DNA from: an uncultured Latescibacterota bacterium
Lineage (GTDB): Bacteria; Latescibacterota; UBA2968
DNA: 64,000 bases
Reading direction: 5' to 3'
NCBI GenBank assembly: GCA_951812755.1
Contig: OX638329.1
Span: 2,341,339-2,405,338, forward strand
In this document: in pieces, positions 48,762 through 62,931 of the stretch
Layout of the letters: each line of letters starts with the position of its first letter
Numbering within the stretch: the first letter of the stretch is position 1
Translations under genes and position numbers: made by a program
Notes under the pieces: generated by a model
The model's input: only the letters and a program-made list of their open reading frames with translations
What the model was told of the DNA's origin: nothing
The model's database searches: none

Positions 48762-49259
48762 ATGGCTTTCAAAACCACTGATTTGTGCGATGAACACGAA
48801 ACTGATCCAGCACTTCAAGTTGTTGAGCCGATATTTAATGACTATGGGGGTGTTACGGCATTTTGCGGTCCGATTGCCACGGTCAAAGTTCGCGAAGACA
48901 ATGTGCTGGTGCGCGAGATACTCGAAACACCGGGGGAGGGGCGCGTGCTTGTCGTCGATGGCGAGGGTTCGATGTGGTGCGCGCTTTTGGGGGATATGGT
49001 CGCTGAAATCGCCAGCGACAACGGCTGGTCGGGGGTTGTCATAAATGGCGGTGTGCGCGATGTATCTGAACTTGCACAAATTGAAATAGGTGTCAAAGCG
49101 CGCTTTGCTGTGCCGCGCCGAAGCCGAAAAGAAGGGCAGGGACGACAGGATACGCCTCTTGCATTTGCCGGTGTCACCTTTCTCCCGGGCGATTATCTCT
49201 ACGCCGATGAAGATGGGATCCTGGTTGCTACGAGAGATTTGTTAGATGCGCAGGCTTGA
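48762..49259 (+). CDS. RraA-like protein (HMG/CHA aldolase or RNase E regulator family)
   Basis: A 165-residue protein of the RraA fold: TTDLCDEH opens the chain, VLVVDG and ALLGDMVAEIASDNGWSGVVINGGVRD form the central block that binds metal and substrate in aldolase members, followed by GDYLYADEDGILVA. In an operon with a sulfatase and an aldo-keto reductase, an aldolase or decarboxylase role is likelier than control of RNase E (inference). The ATG follows AAGAGGTG. The sulfatase start lies 35 bases past its stop. Confidence 0.85.
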   Translation: MAFKTTDLCDEHETDPALQVVEPIFNDYGGVTAFCGPIATVKVREDNVLVREILETPGEGRVLVVDGEGSMWCALLGDMVAEIASDNGWSGVVINGGVRDVSELAQIEIGVKARFAVPRRSRKEGQGRQDTPLAFAGVTFLPGDYLYADEDGILVATRDLLDAQA

Positions 49260-49293
49260 CCTGCAATACAACCTTATATTACGGAGACAAACT

Positions 49294-50661
49294 ATGCAGC
49301 AGACAGATCGACCCAATATTTTATTTATTATGGATGACCAGCATCGTTTTGATTATATGGGTTGTGCAGGTGCTGATTTTGTTCGCACACCCAATATTGA
49401 CCGCCTGGCAAAGCAGGGGGTGCATTTTACCCAATGTACGACAAATTGCCCAGTTTGCGCGCCTTCGCGCATTGCACTGGCTTCTGGCATGCAGCCCTCG
49501 CGCCTCGGTTGCGTTGGGAACAATTGCTTCTTGCCTCGCAGCCAACCAACTTATTATCAGCAATTGCGCGATTACAATTATTACGTGGGTTGTGTGGGCA
49601 AGCTCGATCTGGCCAAACCCGACGGGTATAATGGACGCGATGGCGACAGGCCCGCTACGTATATGTGGGGCTTTACACATCCGGTCGAATGCGAGGGCAA
49701 AATGCACGCTGGGCATTCCAAAACACCGCAGGGTCCTTATAACCATTTTTTGGAGGAAAGAGGGTTGCTCGGTGCTTTTGTCGATGATTATACCCGTCGC
49801 TCCAACGAGGGTTATCACGCTTCCTGTCACGATTCGGTCTTGCCTACCGAAGCTTTTGAGGATGTGTATATTGGGCAGCGATCTGTCGAGTGGATTGAGA
49901 ATATTCCCGGGGATTTCCCCTGGCATTTATTTGTGAGCTTTGTAGGACCTCACGATCCTTTTGATCCGCCAGCCGAATATGGGGAGAAGTACCGCGATGC
50001 AGAGATGCCACCCGCCACGCCTGCAAATTTGCCGGGTAAACCCGTTTACTTAAAAGATCGCATCAAAGACATGACCCCGGAAAAAATAGCAGAGACCCGA
50101 CGACAATATTGCGCGGCAATTGAAGTTATTGACGATCAGATCGGTGAGATGCTCGCGGCAGTTGAACGGCGGGGGATGACCGATAATACGTATGTCATCT
50201 TTTCCAGCGATCACGGAGAAATGCTGGGCGATCACGGTTTGTACACCAAAAGCGTGCCTTACGAAGCATCGGTACACGTTCCTCTCATTGTTGCGGGACC
50301 CGGTATTGAAGGCGGTCGCGTCTCAGATGCTCTCGTTGAACTCATTGACATGAATCCAACGATATGTGATCTTGCTGGCGTGCCCCCGCTTGCGGATATC
50401 GACGCGCGATCAATTGGCGAGGTGCTTCGCGGAGAGGCAGAGGAACACCGCACGGAAACCGTGAGTGGCATACAAAATTTCAGGTGTATCCGTACGCGGG
50501 AGTACAAATTGGTGGAGAACTACAACGATGTTACGGAACTCTACGATTTGATTGCAGATCCTGCAGAAGAACACAATATCGCCGAACAGGAGCCAGAGGT
50601 ACGGCGCGAATTGTCTCGCCGTCTCTCAGCGCGTTATTTAGAAGGCACATGGTATCGGTAG
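49294..50661 (+). CDS. Type I sulfatase (formylglycine-dependent), no signal peptide
   Basis: A 455-residue sulfatase. Metal site MDD14-15, formylglycine signature C55-A-P-S-R, VGKLDL and FSSDHGEMLGDHG are all present. There is no signal peptide, so it acts inside the cell. ATG 49294 has GGAGA upstream and is preferred to an in-frame ATG 48 bases earlier that lies inside the previous gene. It is followed nine bases later by an aldo-keto reductase, so sulfate release and redox processing of one substrate are probably linked (inference). Confidence 0.93.
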   Translation: MQQTDRPNILFIMDDQHRFDYMGCAGADFVRTPNIDRLAKQGVHFTQCTTNCPVCAPSRIALASGMQPSRLGCVGNNCFLPRSQPTYYQQLRDYNYYVGCVGKLDLAKPDGYNGRDGDRPATYMWGFTHPVECEGKMHAGHSKTPQGPYNHFLEERGLLGAFVDDYTRRSNEGYHASCHDSVLPTEAFEDVYIGQRSVEWIENIPGDFPWHLFVSFVGPHDPFDPPAEYGEKYRDAEMPPATPANLPGKPVYLKDRIKDMTPEKIAETRRQYCAAIEVIDDQIGEMLAAVERRGMTDNTYVIFSSDHGEMLGDHGLYTKSVPYEASVHVPLIVAGPGIEGGRVSDALVELIDMNPTICDLAGVPPLADIDARSIGEVLRGEAEEHRTETVSGIQNFRCIRTREYKLVENYNDVTELYDLIADPAEEHNIAEQEPEVRRELSRRLSARYLEGTWYR

Positions 50662-50670
50662 GAGAGAATT

Positions 50671-51654
50671 GTGAAATACACCAAACTTCCCGGTACGGAT
50701 ATCGATGTCTCTGTTATTGCTCTGGGCTGCTGGCCTTTTGCTGGTGGTGATGTTTGGGGTGAGCAAGACGACGATGTATCTATTGCCACGGTGCATGCCG
50801 CGCTCGATGCGGGTATCACTTTTTTTGATACTGCAGAAGGCTATGGCAAGTCCGAACGCGTGCTCGGACGAGGTCTCAAAGGTCGTCGGCAAGACGCGGT
50901 GATCGCCACCAAAGTTGGCGGTGGACATCTTTCGTCTGATGATTTGCCCAAAGCCTGCGAACAAAGCCTGAAAAATCTGCAAACAGATTATATCGATTTG
51001 TACCAAATTCACTGGCCCAATCACAATATTCCCATTGCAGAAACAGCAAGCGCGCTTCAGCGTCTCCGCGATCAGGGAAAAATTCGGGCCATTGGCGTTT
51101 GCAATTTTGCCTGCGGTGATCTGAGTGACTTGATCGCCGTTGCCGATATTGTCACCAATCAGTTGTCCTTTAGCTTGCTCTGGCGCGTTATTGAACGCGA
51201 GATTCAACCGATGTGTTTGGAAAACAATATTGGCATTATCTGTTATAGCCCACTGATGCAGGGGTTGCTTACCGGACGTTATGTCTCTGCGGATGATGTG
51301 CCAGATGGGCTGGCGCGAACGCGCCTGTTTGCAAGTGATCGCCCCATGTCCAAACACGGCGAAGAAGGCTGTGAGACCGAAGTGTTTGATGCGCTGGAAA
51401 AAATTTGCGCTGTCGCCGATGAGTCAGGTGTCGCAATGGCCGAGATTGCCCTTGCCTGGGCATTACAACAACCCGGCATTACATCGCTTCTGGTGGGTGC
51501 GAGAAATCCCGATGAAGTACAATGGAATCTTCCGTCGGTTGATCTCATATTGTCAGAAGATATTCTGCAACGCCTATCTGAAATTACAGAAGGTGTTAAA
51601 GACAAACTCGGCAATAATCCCGATATGTGGATGTCGGACTCGAGGATGAGGTGA
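50671..51654 (+). CDS. Aldo/keto reductase
   Basis: A 327-residue NAD(P)H-dependent TIM-barrel reductase. The catalytic set is D (FFDTAEGYG), Y in the same block, K in VIATKVGG and H in YQIHWPNH; the cofactor site lies in the C-terminal SLLVGARNPDEV block. It starts at GTG with AGGAGA upstream and is the last gene of the rraA-sulfatase-reductase operon. It probably acts on the sugar or polyol freed by the sulfatase (inference). Confidence 0.92.
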   Translation: MKYTKLPGTDIDVSVIALGCWPFAGGDVWGEQDDDVSIATVHAALDAGITFFDTAEGYGKSERVLGRGLKGRRQDAVIATKVGGGHLSSDDLPKACEQSLKNLQTDYIDLYQIHWPNHNIPIAETASALQRLRDQGKIRAIGVCNFACGDLSDLIAVADIVTNQLSFSLLWRVIEREIQPMCLENNIGIICYSPLMQGLLTGRYVSADDVPDGLARTRLFASDRPMSKHGEEGCETEVFDALEKICAVADESGVAMAEIALAWALQQPGITSLLVGARNPDEVQWNLPSVDLILSEDILQRLSEITEGVKDKLGNNPDMWMSDSRMR

Positions 51655-51821: not shown

Positions 51822-52169
51822 ATGGCTCATCTTCAGATTGACGACGCAGAAATATTTTTTCGCACTTTTGCAGATCTTTTGGCTGCTGGCGAAGACGACA
51901 AACACATGGCTCGAAAATTGGGATGCTCGCGGGGCGAAAGCAAGCGCAGGCGGCAGGCATTTCAAAAAGGGGGCATTGTGACGGAGAATGGCGTATCTAA
52001 AGAAAAATTGGATGCGTGGCTGTCTTCAAATGACGGTCAGCGCGCACAACGTCAGTGGGAAGCCCATCACAGACGACAACAGGCTCTGGGGGCAACGGGT
52101 ACCAAACCACAAAAGGGATTCCGCAGACAGCCAGAAGTCAAACGCGGTTGGTCGCGGCAAAAGATTTGA
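51822..52169 (+). CDS. Small basic HTH-like protein, 115 residues
   Basis: Function not recognised. A helix-turn-helix-like stretch DKHMARKLGCSRGESKRRRQAF (about 26-47) is followed by a short GIVTENGVSKEKLDAWLSS unit and a strongly basic, Arg/Gln-rich tail. It may bind nucleic acid. ATG 51822 is preceded by a near-perfect AGGAGG, good evidence that it is translated. It is a single-gene unit ending at the terminator at 52198. Confidence 0.7.
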   Translation: MAHLQIDDAEIFFRTFADLLAAGEDDKHMARKLGCSRGESKRRRQAFQKGGIVTENGVSKEKLDAWLSSNDGQRAQRQWEAHHRRQQALGATGTKPQKGFRRQPEVKRGWSRQKI

Positions 52170-52197
52170 GGTAACAATATTAGTTTGGGATTACAAT

Positions 52198-52228
52198 AAA
52201 GGCCGATGGGCAATATCCATCGGCCTTT
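52198..52228. terminator. Strong bidirectional terminator
   Basis: A perfect 12-bp stem AAAGGCCGATGG / CCATCGGCCTTT with a 7-base loop. It ends transcription of the small HTH-like gene and, from the other side, of the six-gene minus-strand operon ending at 52335. Confidence 0.92.
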
Positions 52229-52265
52229 AATATTTTCCAGCGACTCAACGAATCAACGGAACGGG

Positions 52266-52290
52266 GTACAACTGGTTCAGGCCAGTTCAT
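52266..52290. repeat. TACAACTGG...CCAGTTCAT hairpin element, copy 1
   Basis: A 6-bp stem AACTGG / CCAGTT with a 6-base loop, flanked by CGGAACGG on the left. The same element with a longer stem is at 58179-58202. Confidence 0.65.
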
Positions 52291-52334: not shown

Positions 52335-53309
52335 TCATCGCTCGTCGCGTTTCAAGTCCAGCCAATCGAGCTCTTCTTGTGTGATTTTCAAATTGAGGGC
52401 TTCGATATTGGCTTTGCACTCATCGGGATGGAATACGCCGATTAGTGAAAAGAGATTCAGGGGCTGATTCAAGTTGAATGCCAGCGCGATTTGTGGCACG
52501 GTTAGCCCTTTTTCTTTTGCCAGTTCACCCGCGCGGTCCAGGCGTTTGAAGTTTTGTTCGTAACAATAGGCATCGACACAGGAACCCGGTAGATTTGTTT
52601 TGTAGTCTTCATAAGTGTCGCGCGTAAATCTGCCAGAGAAAAATCCCTGTGCGAGACTCGACCAGGTAAACAGGGGCATGTTTTGTTTTGCGTACCAGGC
52701 GCGGTCCGCCTCGTTGTCAGGCCCACTGATGCTGATACAACCTCTCCAGGGTTCTTTCACCTGTTCTGCAAGGCTGTAATTGGGACTGCTCACGGTAAAT
52801 GGTTCCAGATTGTGCTTGTATGCGTATTCATTGGCTTCCTGTATGCGCGGCACGGTCCAGTTCGATCCGCCAAATAGTCCGATCCGGCCTGCTGCTTTGT
52901 GTTCGTTTAATATCTCTACTATTGGTCCAACTTCGACATTGAGATCATCGCGGTGTAATACATAGATGTCGATAAAATCCGTCCGGCAACGCTCTAATGA
53001 GGTGGTCAGATCTGCTGTAATATCAACTGGCGTGACTTTGTTTTTCTTCCCAGTGTGGTGTGCGCCCTTTGTCAATATAACGGCTTTGTCGTGCAGGCCG
53101 CGCTCGTCGAGCCATTGCCCCAAAACGCGCTCACACTGTCCGCCGCCGTAAATATATGCTCCGTCAAAGCCGTTGACGCCGAGTGCCCATACGCCATCTA
53201 ACAGGTCAAATGATCCTTGCAAGTCGTCTTCGCGCAACATCATTGTACCTTGCAAAATACGCGAAATTTTTTTGTCCATTCCTTCAATTGTGCCGTATTC
53301 CATTGGCAT
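52335..53309 (-). CDS. Aldo/keto reductase
   Basis: A 324-residue aldo-keto reductase, sixth and last gene of the operon starting at 58067. It has FDGAYIYGGGQCE with Asp and Tyr, VILTKGAHH with Lys, and YVLHRDDL with His; the cofactor block is SLIGVFHPDECKANIEAL. Its start lies four bases after the Gfo/Idh stop. It belongs to a different branch from the reductase at 50671. The substrate is probably a sugar or sugar acid. Confidence 0.9.
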   Translation of the reverse strand: MPMEYGTIEGMDKKISRILQGTMMLREDDLQGSFDLLDGVWALGVNGFDGAYIYGGGQCERVLGQWLDERGLHDKAVILTKGAHHTGKKNKVTPVDITADLTTSLERCRTDFIDIYVLHRDDLNVEVGPIVEILNEHKAAGRIGLFGGSNWTVPRIQEANEYAYKHNLEPFTVSSPNYSLAEQVKEPWRGCISISGPDNEADRAWYAKQNMPLFTWSSLAQGFFSGRFTRDTYEDYKTNLPGSCVDAYCYEQNFKRLDRAGELAKEKGLTVPQIALAFNLNQPLNLFSLIGVFHPDECKANIEALNLKITQEELDWLDLKRDER

Positions 53310-53313
53310 GATA

Positions 53314-54300
53314 TTATTCCCTTTCCATCGGATATTTCAATCCCCATTGTTCCCGAATTGCGTCCAGTGTCTGCATATTGGCGAGCGTATCGTCGTGTGA
53401 CATGAGATCGCTTTCCAGCTTGCCTTCTCTTACGCAATGCGCTACTTCGGCGGCTTCATACTCGTACCCATTTCCAGCGCATTCCAGTGTTATGACTTCC
53501 TCTTTGTCGCCGGCGGACAGGGTTGCCGTGCGTCCATCCCAAAACTGCGGCACTGTGATCATGCCATCTGTACCCAATATTTTTGCCTCGTGTGGGGTCT
53601 TGATTCGCACACCGCACGAAATCAATGCGAGTTGTCCTTTGTCGTAGCCAAATACCATAGCCGCCTGTTCATCTACCCCGGTCTCGCCGATATGCGCCTG
53701 GCTCGCAATGGTGGCAGGTTGCGTGTCGAAGATCAGGGATGCATAAGAGATGGGGTAGATTCCAATATCGAGCAGCCCGCCGCCGCCGAGTGCGAGATCG
53801 AACAAGCGACCTTTGGGATTGAGGCGGGCGCGAAATCCAAAATCGGCATATAACATTCGCACCTCGCCAATTGCGCCGTCTGTGACCCACGCCTTTACCT
53901 GTTTGGTAATGGGCAAGAATCGGGTCCACATGGCTTCCATCAAAAACACGCCCTCGCTGCGGGCGACTTCGATAACTTCTCTGGCTTCGTGCTGGTTGAT
54001 TGTAAAGGGTTTTTCGCACAACACGGGCTTGCCCGCTTTAAGGCATAAGATACTGTTCTCTTTGTGAAAGGGATGGGGCGTTGCCACATAAACCGCATCG
54101 ACTTCTGGGTCTTCGGCGAGTGCTTCATAAGAGGCGTGGCGATTGGGTACATCATACTTATCGGCAAAGGCGTCGGCGCGATCCTGGCTGCGCGATCCCA
54201 CGGCTACGAGTTGTGCATCGTCGAGTGCGCGCAATCCCGTGGCGAACTTGTGTGCAATACTGCCGGGGCCGATAATGCCCCAGCGAAAGATATTACCCAT
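53314..54300 (-). CDS. Gfo/Idh/MocA family oxidoreductase
   Basis: A 328-residue NAD(P)-dependent sugar or inositol-type dehydrogenase. The Rossmann loop is WGIIGPGSIAHKF, VYVATPHPFH follows, and CEKPF has the family's catalytic Lys; the C-terminal half is the open beta-sheet substrate domain (GGGGLLDIGIYPI). I chose ATG 54300, since the upstream 154 residues of open frame run into the permease gene on the same strand and have no domain. Fifth gene of the operon. Confidence 0.92.
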   Translation of the reverse strand: MGNIFRWGIIGPGSIAHKFATGLRALDDAQLVAVGSRSQDRADAFADKYDVPNRHASYEALAEDPEVDAVYVATPHPFHKENSILCLKAGKPVLCEKPFTINQHEAREVIEVARSEGVFLMEAMWTRFLPITKQVKAWVTDGAIGEVRMLYADFGFRARLNPKGRLFDLALGGGGLLDIGIYPISYASLIFDTQPATIASQAHIGETGVDEQAAMVFGYDKGQLALISCGVRIKTPHEAKILGTDGMITVPQFWDGRTATLSAGDKEEVITLECAGNGYEYEAAEVAHCVREGKLESDLMSHDDTLANMQTLDAIREQWGLKYPMERE

Positions 54301-54317
54301 TATTGATCCTTTTCTGA

Positions 54318-55046
54318 TTATGAGGTTGAAAATAGAACATACAAAATCATGCGTACGGCGAGCAGTGTTACCAGCCACCTTAAAAGTACGCGAAAATGGT
54401 GCTCGGGTACGCGCCCGCGGATCAGCGTTCCCAGGTAAGACCCAAGAGATGCCGAAGCGATCATACCAACGACCAATTTCCAATACGGTGCAAAGACAAA
54501 ACCCAAAAATCCAAAGGTCAAAATTTTCATCGCATGGCTCGATGTCATCTGAACCGAATGCGTGATTACCGTGCGATCTCGGGGCAGGTTTTCCCGCAGG
54601 AGAAATGGCATATTGAGCGGACCACTTACGCCAAGAAACAGAGATAAAGCGGTTTGAAAAGCACCCAGAAGTGTGAATTTTGCGGGTAAATCGGGTGCGC
54701 GGGAAAATTTGGGCATCCACGTAATGAGCAAAATAAAAATACCCAAAAAGAGGGGCATGGTTTCCCATTTAAAGTCGGCAATAAAACGAGAACCCAACAC
54801 GGCACCGATCACTGCTCCGATTGCGTATTGCCCCACAAGACGCCATTCGGTATGCTTGAGGCCAAAGAGCGCACGGCTCAAGTTGCTGGCAATTTGAGCC
54901 AATCCGTGGACCGGGATAATCGCCGCTGCGGGGAGAAAACCCGGCATAATCGCAATGAGGGCAACGCCGCCGCCAACGCCGCCAATAGCCGCGATCATCG
55001 ATGTGATACACGCCGCGCCAATTAAAAACCAATCCGATATCTCCAT
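54318..55046 (-). CDS. TauE/SafE family sulfite/anion exporter
   Basis: A 242-residue inner-membrane permease with about seven or eight membrane segments. The family glycine-rich motif AAIGGVGGGVALIA lies in the first segment pair, and LFLGVSGPLNMPFLL opens the second half. TauE/SafE proteins export sulfite, sulfoacetate or related anions. Position right after a sulfatase gene, seven bases apart, makes export of a sulfur anion plausible (inference). Fourth gene of the operon. Confidence 0.87.
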   Translation of the reverse strand: MEISDWFLIGAACITSMIAAIGGVGGGVALIAIMPGFLPAAAIIPVHGLAQIASNLSRALFGLKHTEWRLVGQYAIGAVIGAVLGSRFIADFKWETMPLFLGIFILLITWMPKFSRAPDLPAKFTLLGAFQTALSLFLGVSGPLNMPFLLRENLPRDRTVITHSVQMTSSHAMKILTFGFLGFVFAPYWKLVVGMIASASLGSYLGTLIRGRVPEHHFRVLLRWLVTLLAVRMILYVLFSTS

Positions 55047-55053
55047 GCACTCA

Positions 55054-56490
55054 TCACCAGGTCATATAATGCGTTATAGGGCCACCCTGTTTGGCGGTAA
55101 AACGATCGTATTTCGGATGGATAAAATCTTCGGTCGCATCCATGTGGGCGTAAAAAGCTCGCGTCATCTCTTCTCTTTTTTTCGGCTGTGTATCGTATAA
55201 GTTGTTCAATTCAAAGGGATCGTCGATTAGATTGTACAACTCGCCGTAATTTTTTGCCGGATAGTGAATATATTTCCATTCTCGCGTGCGGATGCAGCGT
55301 TTATCGACCGCTTCGGCAAAGATTATGTCTCGTATTTTCGATTGTTCGCCGTTCATCAGCGGCGATAAATCCATGCCCTGCACGCATTCGGGCGCATCAA
55401 AACCCGATAGCTGTGCGAGTGTGGGAAATAGATCTACGGTTTCGGTCAGGGCATCGCAGTCGCTGCCAGCACGGCCGGGCACGGCAATAAAACACGGTAT
55501 GTGTAACATACAATCCAGAAGAAATGGCGCTTTGGCCGGAATACCGTGATCGCCTAAAAATTCACCGTGGTCCGATAGAAAAACCACGACGGTCTCATCA
55601 GCTACGCCCTTTTTTTCTAATGTCTCGACGATCAGGCCCACCTGATGGTCAATTTGGGATACCATGCCGTAATACGCCGCCTTCATCTTGCGAAATATTT
55701 CATCGGAGGCCTGGTCAAATCCACGGTATTTGTGGTGTTCTGCTTTGAAATACAAACCGTATTCAGGTGGCTTTTTTGCAATGTCGTCTTCTGCGTGTCG
55801 AAAGGGGGGCATTGCATTGGGATCGTACATGTTTGCAAAATGCCCAGAGGGAACATAAGGATGGTGAGGTCCGTAGAATCCCACCCATAAGAAAAAGGGA
55901 TTGCTCGTATCCAGTCCTTCGAGGTATTCAATGCTTTTCATTCCTACATAGGCATCAATGTGGCAATCTTCGGGGAGATCGGATGGCACGGCACCGAGGT
56001 TTTTGCGAAAATTGGGCAGGGCGTATCCCGTTTTATACTCGTATCCCTGGTCGCGAACATATTGCTCAAATGGATTGGGATCGGTGACTGTATAATTTCC
56101 ATCTGCGCGCTCTTTCCATCCCCGGCGTATTCCCACGGCGTCCATGTGATCGAGTATCTGTCGAAAACGCTGCTGTCCAATGCCGTGTTTGCCCACACTG
56201 GCGGTTGTGTAGCCCTGGTTTTTGAATGCTTCTACCATTGTTATTTCATTTTCGTTGAGCTTTGAACCGTTCCATTTTACGCCGTGATTTTTTGGATAAC
56301 GTCCGGTCATAAATGTCGCACGCGACGGTGAACATACGGGATTTTGTACAAAGCAGTTTGAAAATCGCGTGCTCTTCTCAGATAGGGCGTCAATTGCAGG
56401 CGTTTGTATGACGCGATCCCCCGTGCATCCCAGCGTATCATACCGCAAGTGGTCTGTCGTAATAAATAAGATATTGGGCTGTTTACTCAT
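55054..56490 (-). CDS. Type I sulfatase (formylglycine-dependent), no signal peptide
   Basis: A 478-residue sulfatase; metal site TTDH (D13), formylglycine signature C53-S-P-S-R, VGKHGIG and FLSDHGEFLGDHG. No signal peptide. ATG 56490 with GAGG upstream is preferred to a start four codons earlier. Third gene of the operon, eight bases after the isochorismatase-like gene and seven before the TauE-type permease. Confidence 0.93.
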   Translation of the reverse strand: MSKQPNILFITTDHLRYDTLGCTGDRVIQTPAIDALSEKSTRFSNCFVQNPVCSPSRATFMTGRYPKNHGVKWNGSKLNENEITMVEAFKNQGYTTASVGKHGIGQQRFRQILDHMDAVGIRRGWKERADGNYTVTDPNPFEQYVRDQGYEYKTGYALPNFRKNLGAVPSDLPEDCHIDAYVGMKSIEYLEGLDTSNPFFLWVGFYGPHHPYVPSGHFANMYDPNAMPPFRHAEDDIAKKPPEYGLYFKAEHHKYRGFDQASDEIFRKMKAAYYGMVSQIDHQVGLIVETLEKKGVADETVVVFLSDHGEFLGDHGIPAKAPFLLDCMLHIPCFIAVPGRAGSDCDALTETVDLFPTLAQLSGFDAPECVQGMDLSPLMNGEQSKIRDIIFAEAVDKRCIRTREWKYIHYPAKNYGELYNLIDDPFELNNLYDTQPKKREEMTRAFYAHMDATEDFIHPKYDRFTAKQGGPITHYMTW

Positions 56491-56498
56491 CGCATACC

Positions 56499-57239
56499 TC
56501 ATAGCAAATCATTGCTCAAAATTGTTGGACACCAGAATTTTTCAATATACGAGATGACTAATTGTGTGCCCGCTTCATGGCTCACATAAGGCGATTTTGC
56601 CGGGTTGTACATCGCATCGGTCAAATCTCGAATTAGCGCGACCTGAATGCCCCAGCGCGTCATTTGTTTGATTGCAAATGTGCGATGCAATACACACATG
56701 TTGGTATGAACGCCCATGATGATCATTTTGTCGATTTCCCGATGCTGCATATAGCTATAAATTTCTTGTCCCTGATCGGAAATAATATCCCGTTTATGGT
56801 CAATATCTATCCCTGCGTGTTGCCGCGTCCAGACCTGCGTATTGATTTTTTTAGGATCTTCCCCTGTGTCTGACCCGCCATCCGAATCATCGATTGGCAG
56901 TGGGAGATCAGCGTGATCCAGATTTTCAGGCGGTTCAACGGATGGGACATCCAATACCCGTCTCCGCGCAGGCGTGTTGGCATAAACATCGAGCGTGTTC
57001 GAGGGGGCGTGAATAATGGTTATACCTTGCTTTCGCGCGCTTTGCACAACAGCGTTCATGCGGGGAATCATCGCTTCTAATCGCTCGACCGCACCGCGAC
57101 ACCAGTGGTTGTTCCACACGTCGCATAACAGCAGGACTGTTTGCTCGGGAGGCCAATAGATCCGTTCTGTTATTGTTTCCCAAACCGTATGTTCACTGTC
57201 ATCCCACAATAAGGACTGCCTCTGCATGGTCAAGTTCAC
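56499..57239 (-). CDS. Isochorismatase-family cysteine hydrolase
   Basis: A 246-residue hydrolase. The catalytic Asp is in LLLCDVWNNHW (D40), and the nucleophile C182 is in GVHTNMCVLHRTFAI; the family's usual cis-peptide block VHTNMC is complete. The middle insertion (about 90-135) is longer than in nicotinamidases. Amides or related small molecules are hydrolysed by relatives; the substrate is unknown. It starts at GTG 57239 with a perfect AGGAGG six bases upstream. Second gene of the operon. Confidence 0.87.
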   Translation of the reverse strand: MNLTMQRQSLLWDDSEHTVWETITERIYWPPEQTVLLLCDVWNNHWCRGAVERLEAMIPRMNAVVQSARKQGITIIHAPSNTLDVYANTPARRRVLDVPSVEPPENLDHADLPLPIDDSDGGSDTGEDPKKINTQVWTRQHAGIDIDHKRDIISDQGQEIYSYMQHREIDKMIIMGVHTNMCVLHRTFAIKQMTRWGIQVALIRDLTDAMYNPAKSPYVSHEAGTQLVISYIEKFWCPTILSNDLL

Positions 57240-57272
57240 GATACACCTCCTGTATTAGCGGTCAGCAGCTTC

Positions 57273-58067
57273 TCAATACCTCACATCAACCAGCCACGCG
57301 CTTTTGGGATTTTTTTCCCAGTGTTGGCGCAGTACCTGTTCGTTTGGGCAAAATTCACCGCGGTAGGCGACTCCACCATGAGAAATATTAAAGCTCATGG
57401 CGACTTCATCTTCGCCCGCATCAACCCAGTGGGGCGTTAATAACTGGTTCCAAAGCAAATCGCCAGGCTGCATGTCATAGGTCAAAATATCTGCCGGATC
57501 TATTTGGGGAATATCAATGCGCGTAACGCCTGTTCGATTTTCCACGAGTTTCTGCACAGGTTCGCGTTTTTCCGGTTCTAAAAACCCGTGAAAGTGTTTT
57601 TCCCCATAAACTTGCCACGCGAGTACATGCGAAGAATCTGCATGATAGGTTGAGCTACACCCTTTTCCAGAGATAAAAATAATGGGATAACATCTTTGCC
57701 ACGTAAACCCGAGTTGAGACAGGAATGTGCGCCAGGGAATCATCACACATTCTTGAAAGTATTCGAGAAATTGTCCCGCGCCATAAAAATTTTGCAAATG
57801 AAAATGCGCCAGGCTAATCGGCATTTCGACGGCTTTTTCTATGGGGGCAGTCTTAAATTTTTCGACCAGAGCATTTTGCTCTGCATCGCTTAAGCTGTCA
57901 TCTAAAAATTGAATACGAGCCTCGGAATTGCGCCGCAAAATATCTATAACTTCTTCGACGGACCTGAGTGGCATTTCAAATTTGAACAACTCAGAATCGA
58001 TAAGAAAATTTCGTTCGCCATTCCAGAACTGGCGAAAATCGTCTGCTGTCATGGCAATCAGATGCAT
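57273..58067 (-). CDS. Cupin/JmjC-like Fe(II)/2-oxoglutarate oxygenase
   Basis: A 264-residue protein of the cupin_8/JmjC-like group. STYHADSSHVLAWQVYGEKHF gives the H-x-D metal motif and the Lys that binds 2-oxoglutarate, and DLLWNQLLTPHWVDAG supplies the distal His. An N-terminal helical domain of about 100 residues precedes the barrel. It is the first gene of the six-gene operon, with GGAG upstream of ATG 58067, and may hydroxylate the operon's substrate (inference). Confidence 0.78.
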   Translation of the reverse strand: MHLIAMTADDFRQFWNGERNFLIDSELFKFEMPLRSVEEVIDILRRNSEARIQFLDDSLSDAEQNALVEKFKTAPIEKAVEMPISLAHFHLQNFYGAGQFLEYFQECVMIPWRTFLSQLGFTWQRCYPIIFISGKGCSSTYHADSSHVLAWQVYGEKHFHGFLEPEKREPVQKLVENRTGVTRIDIPQIDPADILTYDMQPGDLLWNQLLTPHWVDAGEDEVAMSFNISHGGVAYRGEFCPNEQVLRQHWEKNPKSAWLVDVRY

Positions 58068-58165: not shown

Positions 58166-58178
58166 AGGAGCGGTGTAC

Positions 58179-58202
58179 AACTGGTCGCAGTCCAGACCAG
58201 TT
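58179..58202. repeat. AACTGGTC / GACCAGTT hairpin element, copy 2
   Basis: A perfect 8-bp stem with an 8-base loop, followed by TTCATTAAGAATTGCGGAACGG. It matches 52266-52290 in both the TACAACTGG side and the CCAGTTCAT side, with CGGAACGG also shared. Confidence 0.7.
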
Positions 58203-58424
58203 CATTAAGAATTGCGGAACGGCGTATGAAGGGGAGAAAACCTTAAACCGCCTTTGCGGTATGATTTTGACGTGTTTTACGCTTGCTTTTTACTTGGCGT
58301 GATGCTAATTTGGGCGTTTTGGGGCTCCTTTGGGTTGGATATCACGTTCCTGATTGTTCATTACGGTGAATCCAATTTATTCAGGAGCCTTGATTTTTGC
58401 AATTCTTTCTTTTGTGCAACAAAC

Positions 58425-58482: not shown

Positions 58483-59706
58483 ATGAAAATCACCGATATT
58501 GAAGTCATCCCGATTGCGATGCCATTGGCAAAACGCTACGATAACCATCACGGGCGCACGCGTATGTATGATATCGATCAGCATGTGGTGGTCAAAATCC
58601 ATACGGATAACGGCTTGATCGGCTATGGCGATTACGAAGACCGTTCTGCGATTGCGTCCGAGGAAATCGAGCCGTTGATTGGGCGCAATCCCTTTGATTT
58701 TTTGCACAATAATTTCAATATGGCTCTTGGCATGGCGCTCTACGATGTTATGGGTAAGTACCTCGAAGTGCCTGCCTATAAGCTCCTGGGGCAAAAGGTA
58801 AGAGATGCAGTACCTGCGGCGGCATGGACGCGGCCCTGCCCGCCCGAAGTGTTTGCCGAAGAAATCCAGCGCGCTGTCGATCAGGGGTATCGCATTTTCA
58901 AAATGCACTCCGACGTGCGATATGATGTTATTGAACAAACGCGAGCCGCCGCCGAGGTCGCGCCAGAGGGCTTTAAGCTCCACTGGGATTTTAACCACAA
59001 CCGCACGATGGGTGTTGTGCTTCCCATTGTTGCCGAGCTCGAACGCAATTATCCGGTGGTCGGTTTTATTGAAGACCCGCTACCCTGGGCCGATATTGAT
59101 GGCTGGCGCACATTGAGACAAAAAACGCAACTGCCCCTTATCATGCACAATCCCCAACTCGGCGGTATGCAGGAAGTCTTACACGGCACTGCTGATATTT
59201 ACATGATTGGTGGCCGCATTGGCGATACTATGCAAAAAGGGTTTGCGTACGGTCAGGCCAATATCCAGACGCTTCTCCAGCAATCGGGCAATACCCTGAT
59301 GAAGGCTTTTACGTTGCATCAGGCGGCGGTCTTGCCCACGGCAACTGCGCATATTATTACCCTGGACGATCAATACGAAGACGATATTACCACATCGCAA
59401 ATGCTACCGACCGAAGGCTTTTGTCGTGTGCCCGAAGGTGTGGGGCTCGGTATTGAGGTCGATGAAGAGAAACTCAAGCAGGCCGCCCAACGCCAACACA
59501 TTCCCAAACTCGATGTCATTGGCGTGGTCCATTTGCCTTATGGGCGCAAGTATTATACCCGTGGCGAACCCAATGTTCAAAATCTTACGGGCTTTGAAGA
59601 AGGCGCGTTGCGCGGTATCCATTTCGAACGCCTCGTCAGAAACGAATCTCCCGACTTTGAGCGCGTTCAAAAGCGGCTCGAGGAGGAGGGGCCATTTATT
59701 GAGTAA
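58483..59706 (+). CDS. Mandelate racemase/muconate lactonizing enzyme family protein, atypical active site
   Basis: A 407-residue enolase-superfamily protein unlike the one at 37683. FKMHSDVRYD has K-x-H in place of K-x-K, HWDFNHN and GFIEDPLPW keep the first two metal ligands, and the third ligand position reads LIMHNPQLGG, Asn rather than Glu or Asp. The C-terminal block TLHQAAVLPTATAHI holds a conserved His. Related sequences are frequent in Poribacteria/Latescibacterota-type genomes (from memory). The substrate is unknown. An AGGAGG site precedes the ATG. Confidence 0.8.
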   Translation: MKITDIEVIPIAMPLAKRYDNHHGRTRMYDIDQHVVVKIHTDNGLIGYGDYEDRSAIASEEIEPLIGRNPFDFLHNNFNMALGMALYDVMGKYLEVPAYKLLGQKVRDAVPAAAWTRPCPPEVFAEEIQRAVDQGYRIFKMHSDVRYDVIEQTRAAAEVAPEGFKLHWDFNHNRTMGVVLPIVAELERNYPVVGFIEDPLPWADIDGWRTLRQKTQLPLIMHNPQLGGMQEVLHGTADIYMIGGRIGDTMQKGFAYGQANIQTLLQQSGNTLMKAFTLHQAAVLPTATAHIITLDDQYEDDITTSQMLPTEGFCRVPEGVGLGIEVDEEKLKQAAQRQHIPKLDVIGVVHLPYGRKYYTRGEPNVQNLTGFEEGALRGIHFERLVRNESPDFERVQKRLEEEGPFIE

Positions 59707-59862: not shown

Positions 59863-60150
59863 ATGCAAGTCACTGGATTACTGGCCCTTCAGGATTTGAA
59901 AAACCGGTATGCAGATGTAAAGACACAGGTTGATGCCTGGCTTAGTGAAGTTGAAATAGCACAATGGGATTCTCCACAAGACATAAAATTGCGGTATCCA
60001 AGTGCAAGCATTTTATCTGATAATCAAGTGGTTTTTAACTTAAAGGGGAACAAATATAGATTGTTAGTCAAAATAGACTATAAACGTAGACTTATTTCAG
60101 TACAAAAAGCTGGGACCCATGCAGAGTATTCCAAATGGAAGTTAAAGTAA
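59863..60150 (+). CDS. higB: HigB-type mRNA interferase toxin
   Basis: A 95-residue RelE-superfamily ribonuclease toxin. The core VVFNLKGNKYRLLVKIDYKRRLISVQKAGTHAEYSKW holds the basic residues and the conserved GTHAEY end of HigB_toxin members. It would cut mRNA on the ribosome when not held by its antitoxin. The start ATG has AGGGGA upstream. Toxin-first order with the HTH gene 122 bases downstream is the usual hig layout. Confidence 0.85.
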   Translation: MQVTGLLALQDLKNRYADVKTQVDAWLSEVEIAQWDSPQDIKLRYPSASILSDNQVVFNLKGNKYRLLVKIDYKRRLISVQKAGTHAEYSKWKLK

Positions 60151-60271
60151 GGCAATCAATAGGCCGATACTTTTTCAAAAACTGGTCTCTTAAAGTCCAT
60201 AAATATCTAATTTACAAAAAATTGTGAAATTTACTGTCGATTCCATAAATTATACTATTGAAGAGGATGAT

Positions 60272-61477
60272 ATGATTGTCAAAATTATTAAATCTAAATC
60301 CGACTATGAAAACGCCCTCATTGCGGTTGATGAGTTGATCGATCTCGGCCCAGATGAAGACACGTCCGAAGCGGAGAAACTGGAACTCTTGATTCTTTTG
60401 ATTCAAGACTATGAATCCAAACGGTACAAAAAAGAATTGCCCGATCCAATTGAAGCTATTCGTTTTCGAATGGAGCAGCAGAGTTTGAGCCAGAAAGATA
60501 TGATGCCTTATTTGGGCAGTCGAAGTAAGGTTTCAGAAGTTTTAGCGCGAAAACGACCACTTACACTGTCTATGATTCGCGCGCTTCACACGGGGTTGGG
60601 CATCCCTGCAGAGGTGTTACTTCAAGAGGGAGATCCTTCATATCTGGAAGAAATGGATATAGAATGGCATCGCTTTCCCATCCGTGAAATGGTAAAACGC
60701 AATTGGATCACTCAGGATGCTGCGAAAGCAGATGTAGAAAAAGCTATTCGCGATTTTTTGGATATTGATATTGGACAGGAGATATTCGATTTCGCTTTTC
60801 GAAAGACGCAAAATTTTCGGACTGCCCGATCAATCAATAGATACGCTTTGTGGGCCTGGGTTACGCAAGTCATAAAAAAAGCTTTGGCCTCTCCCCCTGA
60901 TAGTCATTATGTACCAGGAACAATAACTTTGAAATTCATGCGTGAAGTTGCCCAGTTAAGCTGGTTTGAACAAGGCCCCGTTCTCGCACAAGAATTTTTG
61001 CACAAATATGGAATTTCTCTGATTATTGAGCCGCATTTACCCAAAACCTATCTCGATGGTGCGGCCATTCGTGTAAAAGAAAAAAATCCTATCATTGGTT
61101 TGAGTATTCGATATGATAGGATTGATAATTTTTGGTTTTGTCTAATGCACGAATTAGCACATATCGCATACCATCTGAATGATAAAAATAACGCTTTCTA
61201 CGATGATCAGGATTTTAGAGCGGAGGGAGATGCTCGAGAAAAAGAGGCTGATGAGTCCGCACAAGAAGCATTAATTCCAAAGGATGTTTGGATAAAAAGT
61301 GCGGCTTCTTATCAACCTACTGCAGAGTCTGTTCAAAAGCTGGCCGACGAGTTGCGTATCCATCCAGCGATTGTTGTAGGACGCATACACTATGAGGCCA
61401 AATCTTATCGCGTATTAAATCGCTGGGTAGGACACAAGCAGGTAAGAAGATGTTTTCCTGATATAGATTGGGGATAA
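60272..61477 (+). CDS. higA: HigA-type HTH antitoxin fused to an ImmA/IrrE-like metallopeptidase domain
   Basis: A 401-residue protein. Residues 1-115 form a HigA-like antitoxin: helices starting VKIIKSKSDYENALIAVDEL, then an XRE helix-turn-helix (SLSQKDMMPYLGSRSKVSEVLARKRPLTLSMIRAL). The C-terminal half is a minimal zinc peptidase with H293-E-L-A-H297 and downstream Glu residues, as in ImmA/IrrE regulators that cut repressors. It probably represses its own promoter and neutralises the HigB-like toxin; the peptidase may make the antitoxin self-regulated (inference). ATG 60272 with GAGG upstream is chosen over 60224. Confidence 0.85.
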   Translation: MIVKIIKSKSDYENALIAVDELIDLGPDEDTSEAEKLELLILLIQDYESKRYKKELPDPIEAIRFRMEQQSLSQKDMMPYLGSRSKVSEVLARKRPLTLSMIRALHTGLGIPAEVLLQEGDPSYLEEMDIEWHRFPIREMVKRNWITQDAAKADVEKAIRDFLDIDIGQEIFDFAFRKTQNFRTARSINRYALWAWVTQVIKKALASPPDSHYVPGTITLKFMREVAQLSWFEQGPVLAQEFLHKYGISLIIEPHLPKTYLDGAAIRVKEKNPIIGLSIRYDRIDNFWFCLMHELAHIAYHLNDKNNAFYDDQDFRAEGDAREKEADESAQEALIPKDVWIKSAASYQPTAESVQKLADELRIHPAIVVGRIHYEAKSYRVLNRWVGHKQVRRCFPDIDWG

Positions 61478-61485
61478 AATAAAAC

Positions 61486-62931
61486 TTAAAAGAATCGATC
61501 TACATCGCGAGGTGGTGTGGTGGCGAAAGACACGAGGATGAGAATGAGGGCGGAAACAGGGACGATAATGCCGGCGGGGATCAGGCCGGTTCCACCAATA
61601 CTGTACGCACCTTCTACATTCAGGGAATCTGCATAAAAAAATAGCCATAGACCAATTACACTCAGGATTGCCGCGGTTGCGCCCTGCTTTGTGCTGCGTT
61701 TCCAGTATAGTGCGCCGACAAATACAGGTACCAGTCCAGCGAAGCCCGTGAGTGACCAGGCGCCGAGTTCAAAAATTGACCGCGTTGTAAATAGCGACGC
61801 GACAAAGGCCAATACGAGGAATGCAGCGACAAATAGGCGTCCGAACAAGATTTGCTGTTTTTCGGACAACTGATTGTCAAAACCGTAAAATCGCACAATA
61901 TCTTCGGTAAACATCGCCCCCAGGGCAAGGGTTTGAGAGTCGAGCGAAGACATAATTGCCGCAAAAACGCCTGCCGCCAGGCACCCTGCCAGCACGCCGC
62001 CCGTATGTGCCAGAATTAATTCAATCAGAATGGGGCCGTTCAGCGGCGCTGTAAAATCGATGCGACCAACCATTCCCAGAGTGACACTGGGCACCCACAC
62101 GGCGGCGATACACAGGGGATAGAATACAATAGGCGTTTGAAATGACCGCGCGGTTCGGGCGGAAAGCCAATGGCCGTAAATATGGGGAAATGCCGCAACA
62201 CTGATGGGCAGGAGGAGATAGGAGAGTATTTTGAACACGGTATAAGAGCCGCTGCCAAAAACCACAAATTCGGGGTGCGTATCGCGCAGCGTTGCCATAG
62301 CCTCGCCGATCCCGCCGTAGTGATCCATAATGACGAGATAGGCAATGATGCCCACGAGAATAAATACTGTTGTTTGAAAGGTATTTGCCCAGGCGGTACT
62401 TCGCATTCCGCCATAGGTTACGTACAAAAATGTCACACCACATACGAGCAAACTGCCAGCCCAACCCGGCCACTCACCGCGCGTGATTGCCGCGAGTGCA
62501 TCGCCCCCGCCTTTGACTCCTATCAGGATGTAGGGTAGCATCAACAACACCACTACGACAAATAAGAGCGTTCCCAGTGCCGGGGATGTATAGCGGTCCC
62601 GGATCATTTGGATTTGGGTGACATAAGAGAACCGTTTGCCCAGCCACCAGCTTTTTGTGCCGAGATAATAAAAGAGAAATGGAATCAAAATGGACGAACT
62701 CGCGCCCATCAGACCGAAGACGACAATTCCCAGGCGATAGGCTTCTCCAGATGCCCCCAGCATTGTAAATGCAGTGAGGTTGGTGCCCAGCAGTGTCATC
62801 AACAGGACTACAGGACCAATGCTTCGGCTTGCGACAAAGTAATCTTCTGCGGTATTGCGAAATAGCCGATGCCCCAGAGTGCCGACTACTATGACCAGCC
62901 CCAGATAAATTGCGACAACCGCAATAATCAT
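61486..62931 (-). CDS. Sodium:solute symporter (SSS family)
   Basis: A 481-residue inner-membrane transporter with about 13 membrane helices. VGTLGHRLFRNTAEDYFVASR near the start is the typical SSS opening, and GANSSILIP-like and ALGAMFTEDIVRFYG blocks follow. It should bring in a sugar, acid or similar solute with sodium. Its start overlaps the preceding DUF3311 gene by four bases (ATGA), a common pairing for this transporter type. Confidence 0.9.
   Translation of the reverse strand: MIIAVVAIYLGLVIVVGTLGHRLFRNTAEDYFVASRSIGPVVLLMTLLGTNLTAFTMLGASGEAYRLGIVVFGLMGASSSILIPFLFYYLGTKSWWLGKRFSYVTQIQMIRDRYTSPALGTLLFVVVVLLMLPYILIGVKGGGDALAAITRGEWPGWAGSLLVCGVTFLYVTYGGMRSTAWANTFQTTVFILVGIIAYLVIMDHYGGIGEAMATLRDTHPEFVVFGSGSYTVFKILSYLLLPISVAAFPHIYGHWLSARTARSFQTPIVFYPLCIAAVWVPSVTLGMVGRIDFTAPLNGPILIELILAHTGGVLAGCLAAGVFAAIMSSLDSQTLALGAMFTEDIVRFYGFDNQLSEKQQILFGRLFVAAFLVLAFVASLFTTRSIFELGAWSLTGFAGLVPVFVGALYWKRSTKQGATAAILSVIGLWLFFYADSLNVEGAYSIGGTGLIPAGIIVPVSALILILVSFATTPPRDVDRFF

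Follow-up and report, generated by a model that had tools for sequence, protein, structure and literature searches.

A six-gene operon in a Latescibacterota genome

The stretch of DNA considered here (64,000 nucleotides, hereafter the window) comes from an uncultured Latescibacterota bacterium and lies in a 6.53-Mb single-contig genome (GenBank assembly GCA_951812755.1, contig OX638329.1, positions 2,341,339 to 2,405,338). On its minus strand, at 52335-58067, six co-directed genes follow one another in the order jmj, isoch, sulfatase, tauE, gfo and akr (Table 1). The aldo/keto reductase (AKR), Gfo/Idh/MocA dehydrogenase, TauE transporter, sulfatase and isochorismatase-like protein all score above their Pfam cut-offs, and the oxygenase encoded by jmj scores below. 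In transcript order, the intergenic gaps are 33, -4, 7, 17 and 4 bases, the -4 being an ATGA overlap between isoch and sulfatase; a sequence-only reading that had given the gaps as 4 to 33 bases was therefore right for four junctions and wrong for this one. The gap becomes 8 if the sulfatase begins at its second ATG (56490), which may be the true start, as it is preceded by a better-placed purine-rich stretch. The gfo open reading frame (ORF) as listed reaches 54768 and overlaps tauE; the ATG at 54300, which yields a 328-aa protein fitting the family models, is the likely start.

Table 1. Positions of the operon genes and associated features (window coordinates, unless a relative's locus is named).
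Feature	Position	Strand	Description
jmj	57273-58067	-	264 aa; first gene; JmjC-fold non-haem iron, presumably 2-oxoglutarate-dependent, oxygenase
isoch	56499-57239	-	246 aa, GTG start; divergent isochorismatase-like cysteine hydrolase
sulfatase	55054-56502	-	482 aa; S1-type, PF00884
tauE	54318-55046	-	242 aa; TauE/SafE-type membrane anion transporter, PF01925
gfo	53314-54300	-	328 aa; Gfo/Idh/MocA NAD(P)-dependent dehydrogenase, PF01408
akr	52335-53309	-	324 aa; aldo/keto reductase, PF00248; last gene
Hairpin terminator	52197-52229		14 pairs; between the operon and convergent ORF 51822-52169
Divergent enolase-superfamily gene	58483-59706	+	mandelate racemase/sugar-acid dehydratase type; PF13378, 70.8 bits
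Sodium:solute symporter	61486-62931	-	PF00474, 104.8 bits; conserved neighbour in the genus
Two-gene cassette copies	L031:12113-16491; L027:3137-7530; L029:8709-13102		in operon direction
DDE transposase gene	L031:6921-7976		splits jmj in G008

The families involved are abundant in this genome, which contains at least 152 matches to the sulfatase profile PF00884, 108 to PF01408 and 20 to the FGE-family profile PF03781; for comparison, excerpts of PMC4454575 give 14 and 3 sulfatases for two Latescibacteria single-cell genomes. Since both families are so common, a sulfatase beside a Gfo gene is by itself weak evidence, and conservation must therefore carry the argument for an operon. We searched for the sulfatase in 60 genomes: the window's own, 10 relatives of the same genus (G001 to G010), four members of other genera of the family (G011 to G014) and 45 genomes outside the family. 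One close match (E<=1e-100) was present in each of the ten genus relatives and in three of the four other-genus family genomes, and none was found in the 45 genomes outside the family.

All six genes occur in the same order on one contig in seven of the ten genus relatives (G002, G003, G004, G006, G007, G008 and G009), with akr of G003 cut by a contig end and jmj of G008 broken; in G001, G005 and G010 the set is split by contig ends without contradicting this order. The arrangement is retained as far as G008, at 78-90% protein identity. The dN/dS ratio was 0.04-0.17 for all six genes against G009, G002, G006 and G008 (24 gene-by-genome comparisons), and by this estimate the genes are under purifying selection. 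The sequence-only reading had proposed a six-gene operon, and an operon-like unit is supported by the six ORFs, their conserved order and these ratios. We conclude that this is a real, conserved genus-level operon in which known enzyme families occur in an unusual mix together with two less-known protein subfamilies.

Gene content varies within the unit. In eight of the ten genus relatives, jmj and isoch are separated by a metallophosphoesterase gene, or this gene adjoins jmj at a contig end; the window genome, G009 and G008 lack it. Because G013 and G014, from other genera, also carry this gene near isoch, the more parsimonious history is that the window's lineage lost it. Between tauE and gfo, three of the ten relatives (G004, G005 and G008) contain a two-gene cassette encoding proteins of about 1160 and 300 aa. 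The large cassette protein has only a sub-threshold match to STAND NTPases, and PADLOC returned nothing for the cassette or for the transposase gene and one weak match for the metallophosphoesterase. The cassette may be a mobile or defence-like unit.

Downstream of akr lies a hairpin that a terminator scanner reported for the plus strand only, where it serves the convergent ORF as well. On the operon strand, T-rich tails (TTTATTG or similar) follow the same hairpin, which is kept in six of eight genomes examined and not in the stretches of G001 and G008; on this basis it probably ends both converging units. The single strong terminator of the sequence-only reading corresponds to this 14-pair structure. 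Sigma-70-like promoter hits in the region were not above shuffles (9 versus 9.6), hence we claim no promoter. A TTGAAT-17-TATGTT site, noted by eye at 58133-58105 of the operon strand, is common to the window and most relatives and is broken in G009.

The sulfatase, the transporter and the two oxidoreductases

The sulfatase matches PF00884 at 156.3 bits (cut-off 25) over model positions 1-300 of 301. Its Cys-type C-x-P-x-R motif reads C57-S-P-S-R61, and C-[SA]-P-S-R is found in all four aligned orthologues, the window's included; the protein has neither a signal peptide nor a hydrophobic N-terminus. Given this motif and N-terminus, the sulfatase is likely cytosolic and formylglycine-dependent. 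For formylglycine maturation, the genome offers 20 PF03781 matches at E<=0.001 (best 281.4 bits) as candidates. These features make plausible the intracellular desulfation that the sequence-only reading had suggested. Among the nearest solved chains, sulfatases are mixed with phosphonate monoester hydrolases; a GH78/sulfatase chain and choline sulfatases also occur. No NCBIfam equivalog passed its cut-off for this protein, with PehA, at 200.8 bits, far under its cut-off of 900.

TauE matches PF01925 at 83.2 bits (cut-off 32.6) and shows five hydrophobic windows in a crude scan, suggesting a multi-pass membrane protein of the TauE/SafE type, with the anion that it handles predicted by family. 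Characterised TauE exports sulfite, according to excerpts of PMC12421959, and sulfite is at least as likely as sulfate to be the anion of this TauE. In a library of open-licence papers, nothing among the matches listed places TauE in sulfatase operons, the combination of Latescibacterota, sponge and sulfatase was not found, and three of isochorismatase, sulfatase, Gfo and TauE jointly brought up only an unrelated proteomics study.

The gfo product matches PF01408 at 92.6 bits, and its nearest solved chain is dimeric dihydrodiol dehydrogenase (2o48, 211 bits); many of the nearest solved Gfo chains bear the names of sugar, polyol or diol substrates. The akr product matches PF00248 at 169.1 bits, with 7utf and IolS as nearest solved chains. 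Export of the anion and oxidation or reduction of the sugar had also been proposed from sequence: sugar-type oxidoreductases are indeed found, sulfate as the TauE anion and a sugar as the carbon part being predictions.

An isochorismatase-like subfamily recurs beside Gfo genes and sulfatases

The isoch product matches PF00857 at 42.9 bits (cut-off 27). In a nine-row alignment of its closer subfamily, whose members are 52-70% identical to the window protein, D40 and C182 are invariant (9/9). An invariant Gln140 aligns, in a single weak profile alignment to nicotinamidase 2wt9, with the position that we take to be the catalytic Lys. Relatives of isoch occur in 37 of 47 genomes of the class, some of them distant matches, and none was found in a plasmid collection.

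Fourteen isoch neighbourhoods were fetched, and 11 have a Gfo-like gene within 5 kb; for comparison, the window's own genome has 108 Gfo matches in its 6.53 Mb. The 14 represent six genera only and six of them are from genus g13, so that the 11 are not independent. The locus of G033, which belongs to a different family, runs from Gfo through a xylose-isomerase-like barrel to isoch and a sulfatase, and then to the binding protein and permeases of an ABC transporter; there isoch and the sulfatase overlap by 4 bases, and that sulfatase is 28% identical to the window's. That isoch turns up again with another sulfatase is the strongest evidence that the two serve one kind of route, one that acts on sugars.

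jmj encodes a predicted JmjC-fold oxygenase with other partners elsewhere

No Pfam family scores over its cut-off for the jmj product (JmjC_2 16.1 of 22 bits, Cupin_8 16.1 of 27.4), and six of 24 jmj members match JmjC_2 at E<=0.01. An AlphaFold2 model built from 24 sequences (the window protein and 23 of 24 filtered non-redundant sequences, L064 being left out for an ambiguous residue) reached a pLDDT of 93.5 and a pTM of 0.90. A first prediction from five sequences, with a pLDDT of 51.9, was not used, and a PDB sequence search with the five-row profile gave one unrelated weak match only. The best VIA match of the model was JMJD5 (Z 16.3, 204 aligned, 3.3 A), followed by FIH (15.4) and YcfD (14.8); the fold neighbours as a group (JMJD5, FIH, NO66, YcfD and TYW5) are JmjC protein and tRNA hydroxylases. 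The residues of an HxD...H facial triad, H142, D144 and H213, are invariant in 24/24. Judged by this model, the jmj product is related to JmjC_2 and Cupin_8 at the level of fold and is not a member of those Pfam families; it is a JmjC-fold oxygenase, presumably dependent on 2-oxoglutarate (2OG). JmjC folds are better known for protein or tRNA modification, and such an oxygenase inside a catabolic unit is the most surprising component of the operon.

The gene is present in 29 of the 47 class genomes, mostly unlinked to the window-type sulfatase, so jmj may be a passenger in the operon. Close copies come from records titled Candidatus Latescibacterota or Gemmatimonadota, nearly all metagenome-assembled. 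Across 21 class-wide jmj loci, a count that excludes genus loci L051-L056, isoch is nearby in two (L057 and L060) and an HD-domain gene in three (L057, L058 and L070). That isoch stands near jmj in only two of these loci led us to drop the idea of an oxygenase dedicated to the sulfatase; with most loci lacking isoch and three having the HD gene, the original partners of jmj are other genes.

The jmj orthologues of G011, G012 and G014 adjoin an HD gene and an MFS gene. Two HD proteins, of G014 and G013, were scored against Phn-HD (TIGR03276, cut-off 214.6), giving 206.7 bits for G014 and 204.7 for G013. In three sister genera (L058:7202-11552, L070:5314-8442 and L057:2229-6338), the MFS gene and a PhnZ/TmpB-like HD gene stand ahead of jmj, from which another small gene separates the HD gene; in L057 and L058 the gene after jmj encodes a PPIase; by eye, the YxxE loop of PhnZ reads YDGGE in L057. 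There is no HD gene at the window locus, the sole match in that genome (46%) lying at 463857 between ABC-transporter-like genes.

The operon divides into modules in other genera

In G014 (genus g5), a single strand carries MFS, HD, jmj, PPIase, metallophosphoesterase, a 605-aa protein, isoch, sulfatase and tauE, and the gfo matches are on other contigs than this stretch. G013 (g4) has isoch and sulfatase near each other and no match to tauE, gfo or jmj. In G011, sulfatase, isoch and jmj are each on a contig of their own, and tauE, gfo and akr share a further one (within about 12 kb). In G012, a stretch of about 16 kb holds gfo, akr, tauE and jmj, and neither the sulfatase (at E<=1e-100) nor isoch (at E<=1e-15) has a match. 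The genes gfo and akr are adjacent in both G011 and G012 also. Outside the genus, isoch-sulfatase-TauE and gfo-akr behave as separate modules. Scattering in relatives, which the sequence-only reading would have held against a common unit, is partly seen: the order holds within the genus, but the set is split in the four other family genera.

Neighbouring genes and repeats

The enolase-superfamily gene divergent from the operon is found in eight of 13 related loci, and in all genus relatives whose contig extends that far; a 52% homologue lies near isoch in G029 (L126), of another family. It is a probable pathway neighbour outside the operon. The sodium:solute symporter occurs near the enolase gene in seven of the 13 loci, and also in L060 (G008), and is a possible candidate importer.

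On the other side, 48762-51654 holds a second, convergent unit consisting of an RraA-like gene, a further sulfatase (again lacking a signal peptide) and an AKR gene, which adjoins the first operon in genus relatives whose contigs extend to it. At 59863-61477, a 95-aa ORF is followed by an IrrE-type (Peptidase_M78) gene, and none of the 13 related loci has a match that reaches 40% identity; the two resemble a toxin-antitoxin-like pair. On either side of the operon (52266-52290 and 58175-58205) lies a copy of a palindromic intergenic repeat (GTACAACTGGT...CCAGTTCAT). The gapped pattern has 11 exact matches genome-wide versus 0 for a reversed control, the shorter 52266 copy falling outside the pattern used for this count. 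The 58175 copy sits inside a stretch of more than 200 extra bases that is not found in six aligned relatives.

A proposed cytosolic route for sulfated sugars and its alternatives

Taking these observations together, we favour, with belief and doubt in equal measure, a reading of the operon as a cytosolic sulfate-ester catabolic unit for a small sulfated sugar or polyol, in which we infer the substrate, the exported anion and the part played by the oxygenase. A small sulfated compound would be imported, with the upstream symporter as candidate importer, and the formylglycine sulfatase would strip its sulfate in the cytosol. The isochorismatase-like hydrolase would take off a second group, possibly an amide or ester; the Gfo/Idh/MocA and aldo/keto reductases would interconvert alcohol and carbonyl groups; and the sugar-acid dehydratase encoded by the divergent enolase gene may carry the route further. 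TauE would expel the anion. The JmjC-fold oxygenase, the least certain part, would have joined from another locus.

The isoch-sulfatase-tauE set of g5 and the isoch-sulfatase set of g4 argue for this route, as do the tight spacing with a hairpin behind it, the conserved order and low dN/dS, the sulfatase motif without a signal peptide in a genome with FGE-family matches, the isoch-sulfatase pairing of G033, the Gfo-like neighbours of isoch, the adjacent gfo and akr of G011 and G012 and the substrate names of the nearest solved Gfo chains. Several observations weigh against it: none of the six operon genes encodes an importer; with phosphonate monoester hydrolases among its nearest solved relatives, the sulfatase may act on another type of ester; TauE members are known for sulfite or organosulfonates, not sulfate; G011 has its orthologues dispersed, and G012 and G013 lack some of theirs; three of the 14 isoch neighbourhoods, all from g14, lack a Gfo-like gene, and the dominance of g13 tempers the positives; with families this abundant, some neighbourhoods arise by chance; and jmj has no evident step. 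If the route is true, the operon is a testable entry to the intracellular use of sulfated compounds by sulfatase-rich Latescibacterota, and clusters of this kind could be recognised by their member of the isochorismatase-like subfamily. Even then, known principles would not be overturned: the operon is ordinary in kind, built from common enzyme families and mildly unusual.

One alternative, which we regard as unlikely, is that there is no single pathway, and that isoch-sulfatase-tauE, gfo-akr and jmj are modules, each useful by itself, joined in one genus that share a promoter but not a substrate, with jmj maybe encoding a protein hydroxylase. The occurrence of these modules apart in four other family genera is what this would predict, as are the entry of unrelated genes into the unit (the cassette in three of ten relatives and the transposase gene in jmj of G008), the sheer number of sulfatase and Gfo matches in the genome and the recurrence of jmj in unrelated contexts. 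Yet the modules keep meeting, with gfo, akr and tauE close together in both G011 and G012 and jmj with them in the latter, and their order is retained through the genus down to G008.

The sulfite preference suggested for TauE keeps alive a second alternative, oxygenolytic desulfonation, to which we give a rather low probability. Here an Fe/2OG oxygenase would cut the C-S bond of a sulfonated sugar, TauE would export the sulfite, the AKR would reduce the aldehyde, and the sulfatase would remove a second, ester-bound group. Oxygenase, reductase and exporter are all parts of the sulfo-ASDO route as outlined in excerpts of PMC12890257, sulfite would suit TauE better than sulfate (PMC12421959, in excerpt), and the jmj model has the 2OG-oxygenase fold and triad. 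The fold neighbours of jmj, however, are hydroxylases of protein and tRNA, and across the class jmj is mostly away from the sulfatase set, being on a different contig from tauE in G011.

A third alternative is phosphorus scavenging, which seems to us improbable: the 'sulfatase' would be a phosphonate monoester or phosphodiester hydrolase, and the oxygenase would once have been the partner of an HD-domain oxygenase of the PhnZ/TmpB kind. The mixed PDB matches of the sulfatase and its PehA score fit this idea, as do the HD and MFS genes beside jmj in G011, G012 and G014, the G014 protein nearing the Phn-HD cut-off, and the metallophosphoesterase in the unit of most genus relatives. But the only HD match in the window genome lies outside the locus, the Phn-HD and TmpB scores stay under cut-off, neither the window genome nor G009 or G008 has the metallophosphoesterase, and TauE and Gfo fit poorly. 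Very improbable, finally, is the boldest proposal, a Latescibacterota-centred JmjC-fold oxygenase family, unnamed in Pfam, that would act in small-molecule catabolism by HD-oxygenase-paired bond cleavage in sister genera and would have been recruited here to a sulfatase/TauE operon opening a sugar with two modifications, a sulfate and a C-S or C-P bond, with a Lys-less isochorismatase-like hydrolase as third new activity.

Comparison with known systems

Gene clusters with S1 sulfatases for sulfated glycans exist. The operon resembles them, and the Latescibacteria sulfatases as described in excerpts of PMC4454575, in combining a formylglycine-type PF00884 sulfatase with sugar-processing genes. 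It differs from such glycan clusters in lacking a polysaccharide lyase or glycoside hydrolase, in a sulfatase without signal peptide, and in including a TauE transporter as well as a JmjC-fold oxygenase.

In the sulfo-ASDO (sulfo-SDO) route with SqoD and SquF, as excerpted from PMC12890257, SqoD belongs to the iron- and 2OG-dependent dioxygenases; reduction of 6-dehydroglucose follows, and sulfite is excreted. By that description, the operon is alike in joining a 2OG-type oxygenase, an oxidoreductase and a sulfite-type exporter, and differs in its sulfatase, isochorismatase-like and Gfo genes and in having no sulfoquinovosidase among the six. Its oxygenase has a JmjC fold, with an activity that is only predicted from the model.

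A further comparison is with the PhnY/PhnZ and TmpA/TmpB pairs. The family of PhnY is PhyH (PF05721), to which jmj has no match at E 1; the window locus differs also in having no HD gene, and the family scores of its relatives' HD proteins are under cut-off. The likeness lies in three sister genera, where the jmj orthologue adjoins an HD gene of the PhnZ/TmpB kind as these are presented in excerpts of PMC8177086.

Lastly, the isoch product shares the PF00857 family with nicotinamidase and other isochorismatase-like hydrolases and keeps their Asp and Cys positions. It differs from them in the invariant Gln at the Lys position, as placed by the one weak alignment, and in having only weak matches to the solved members.

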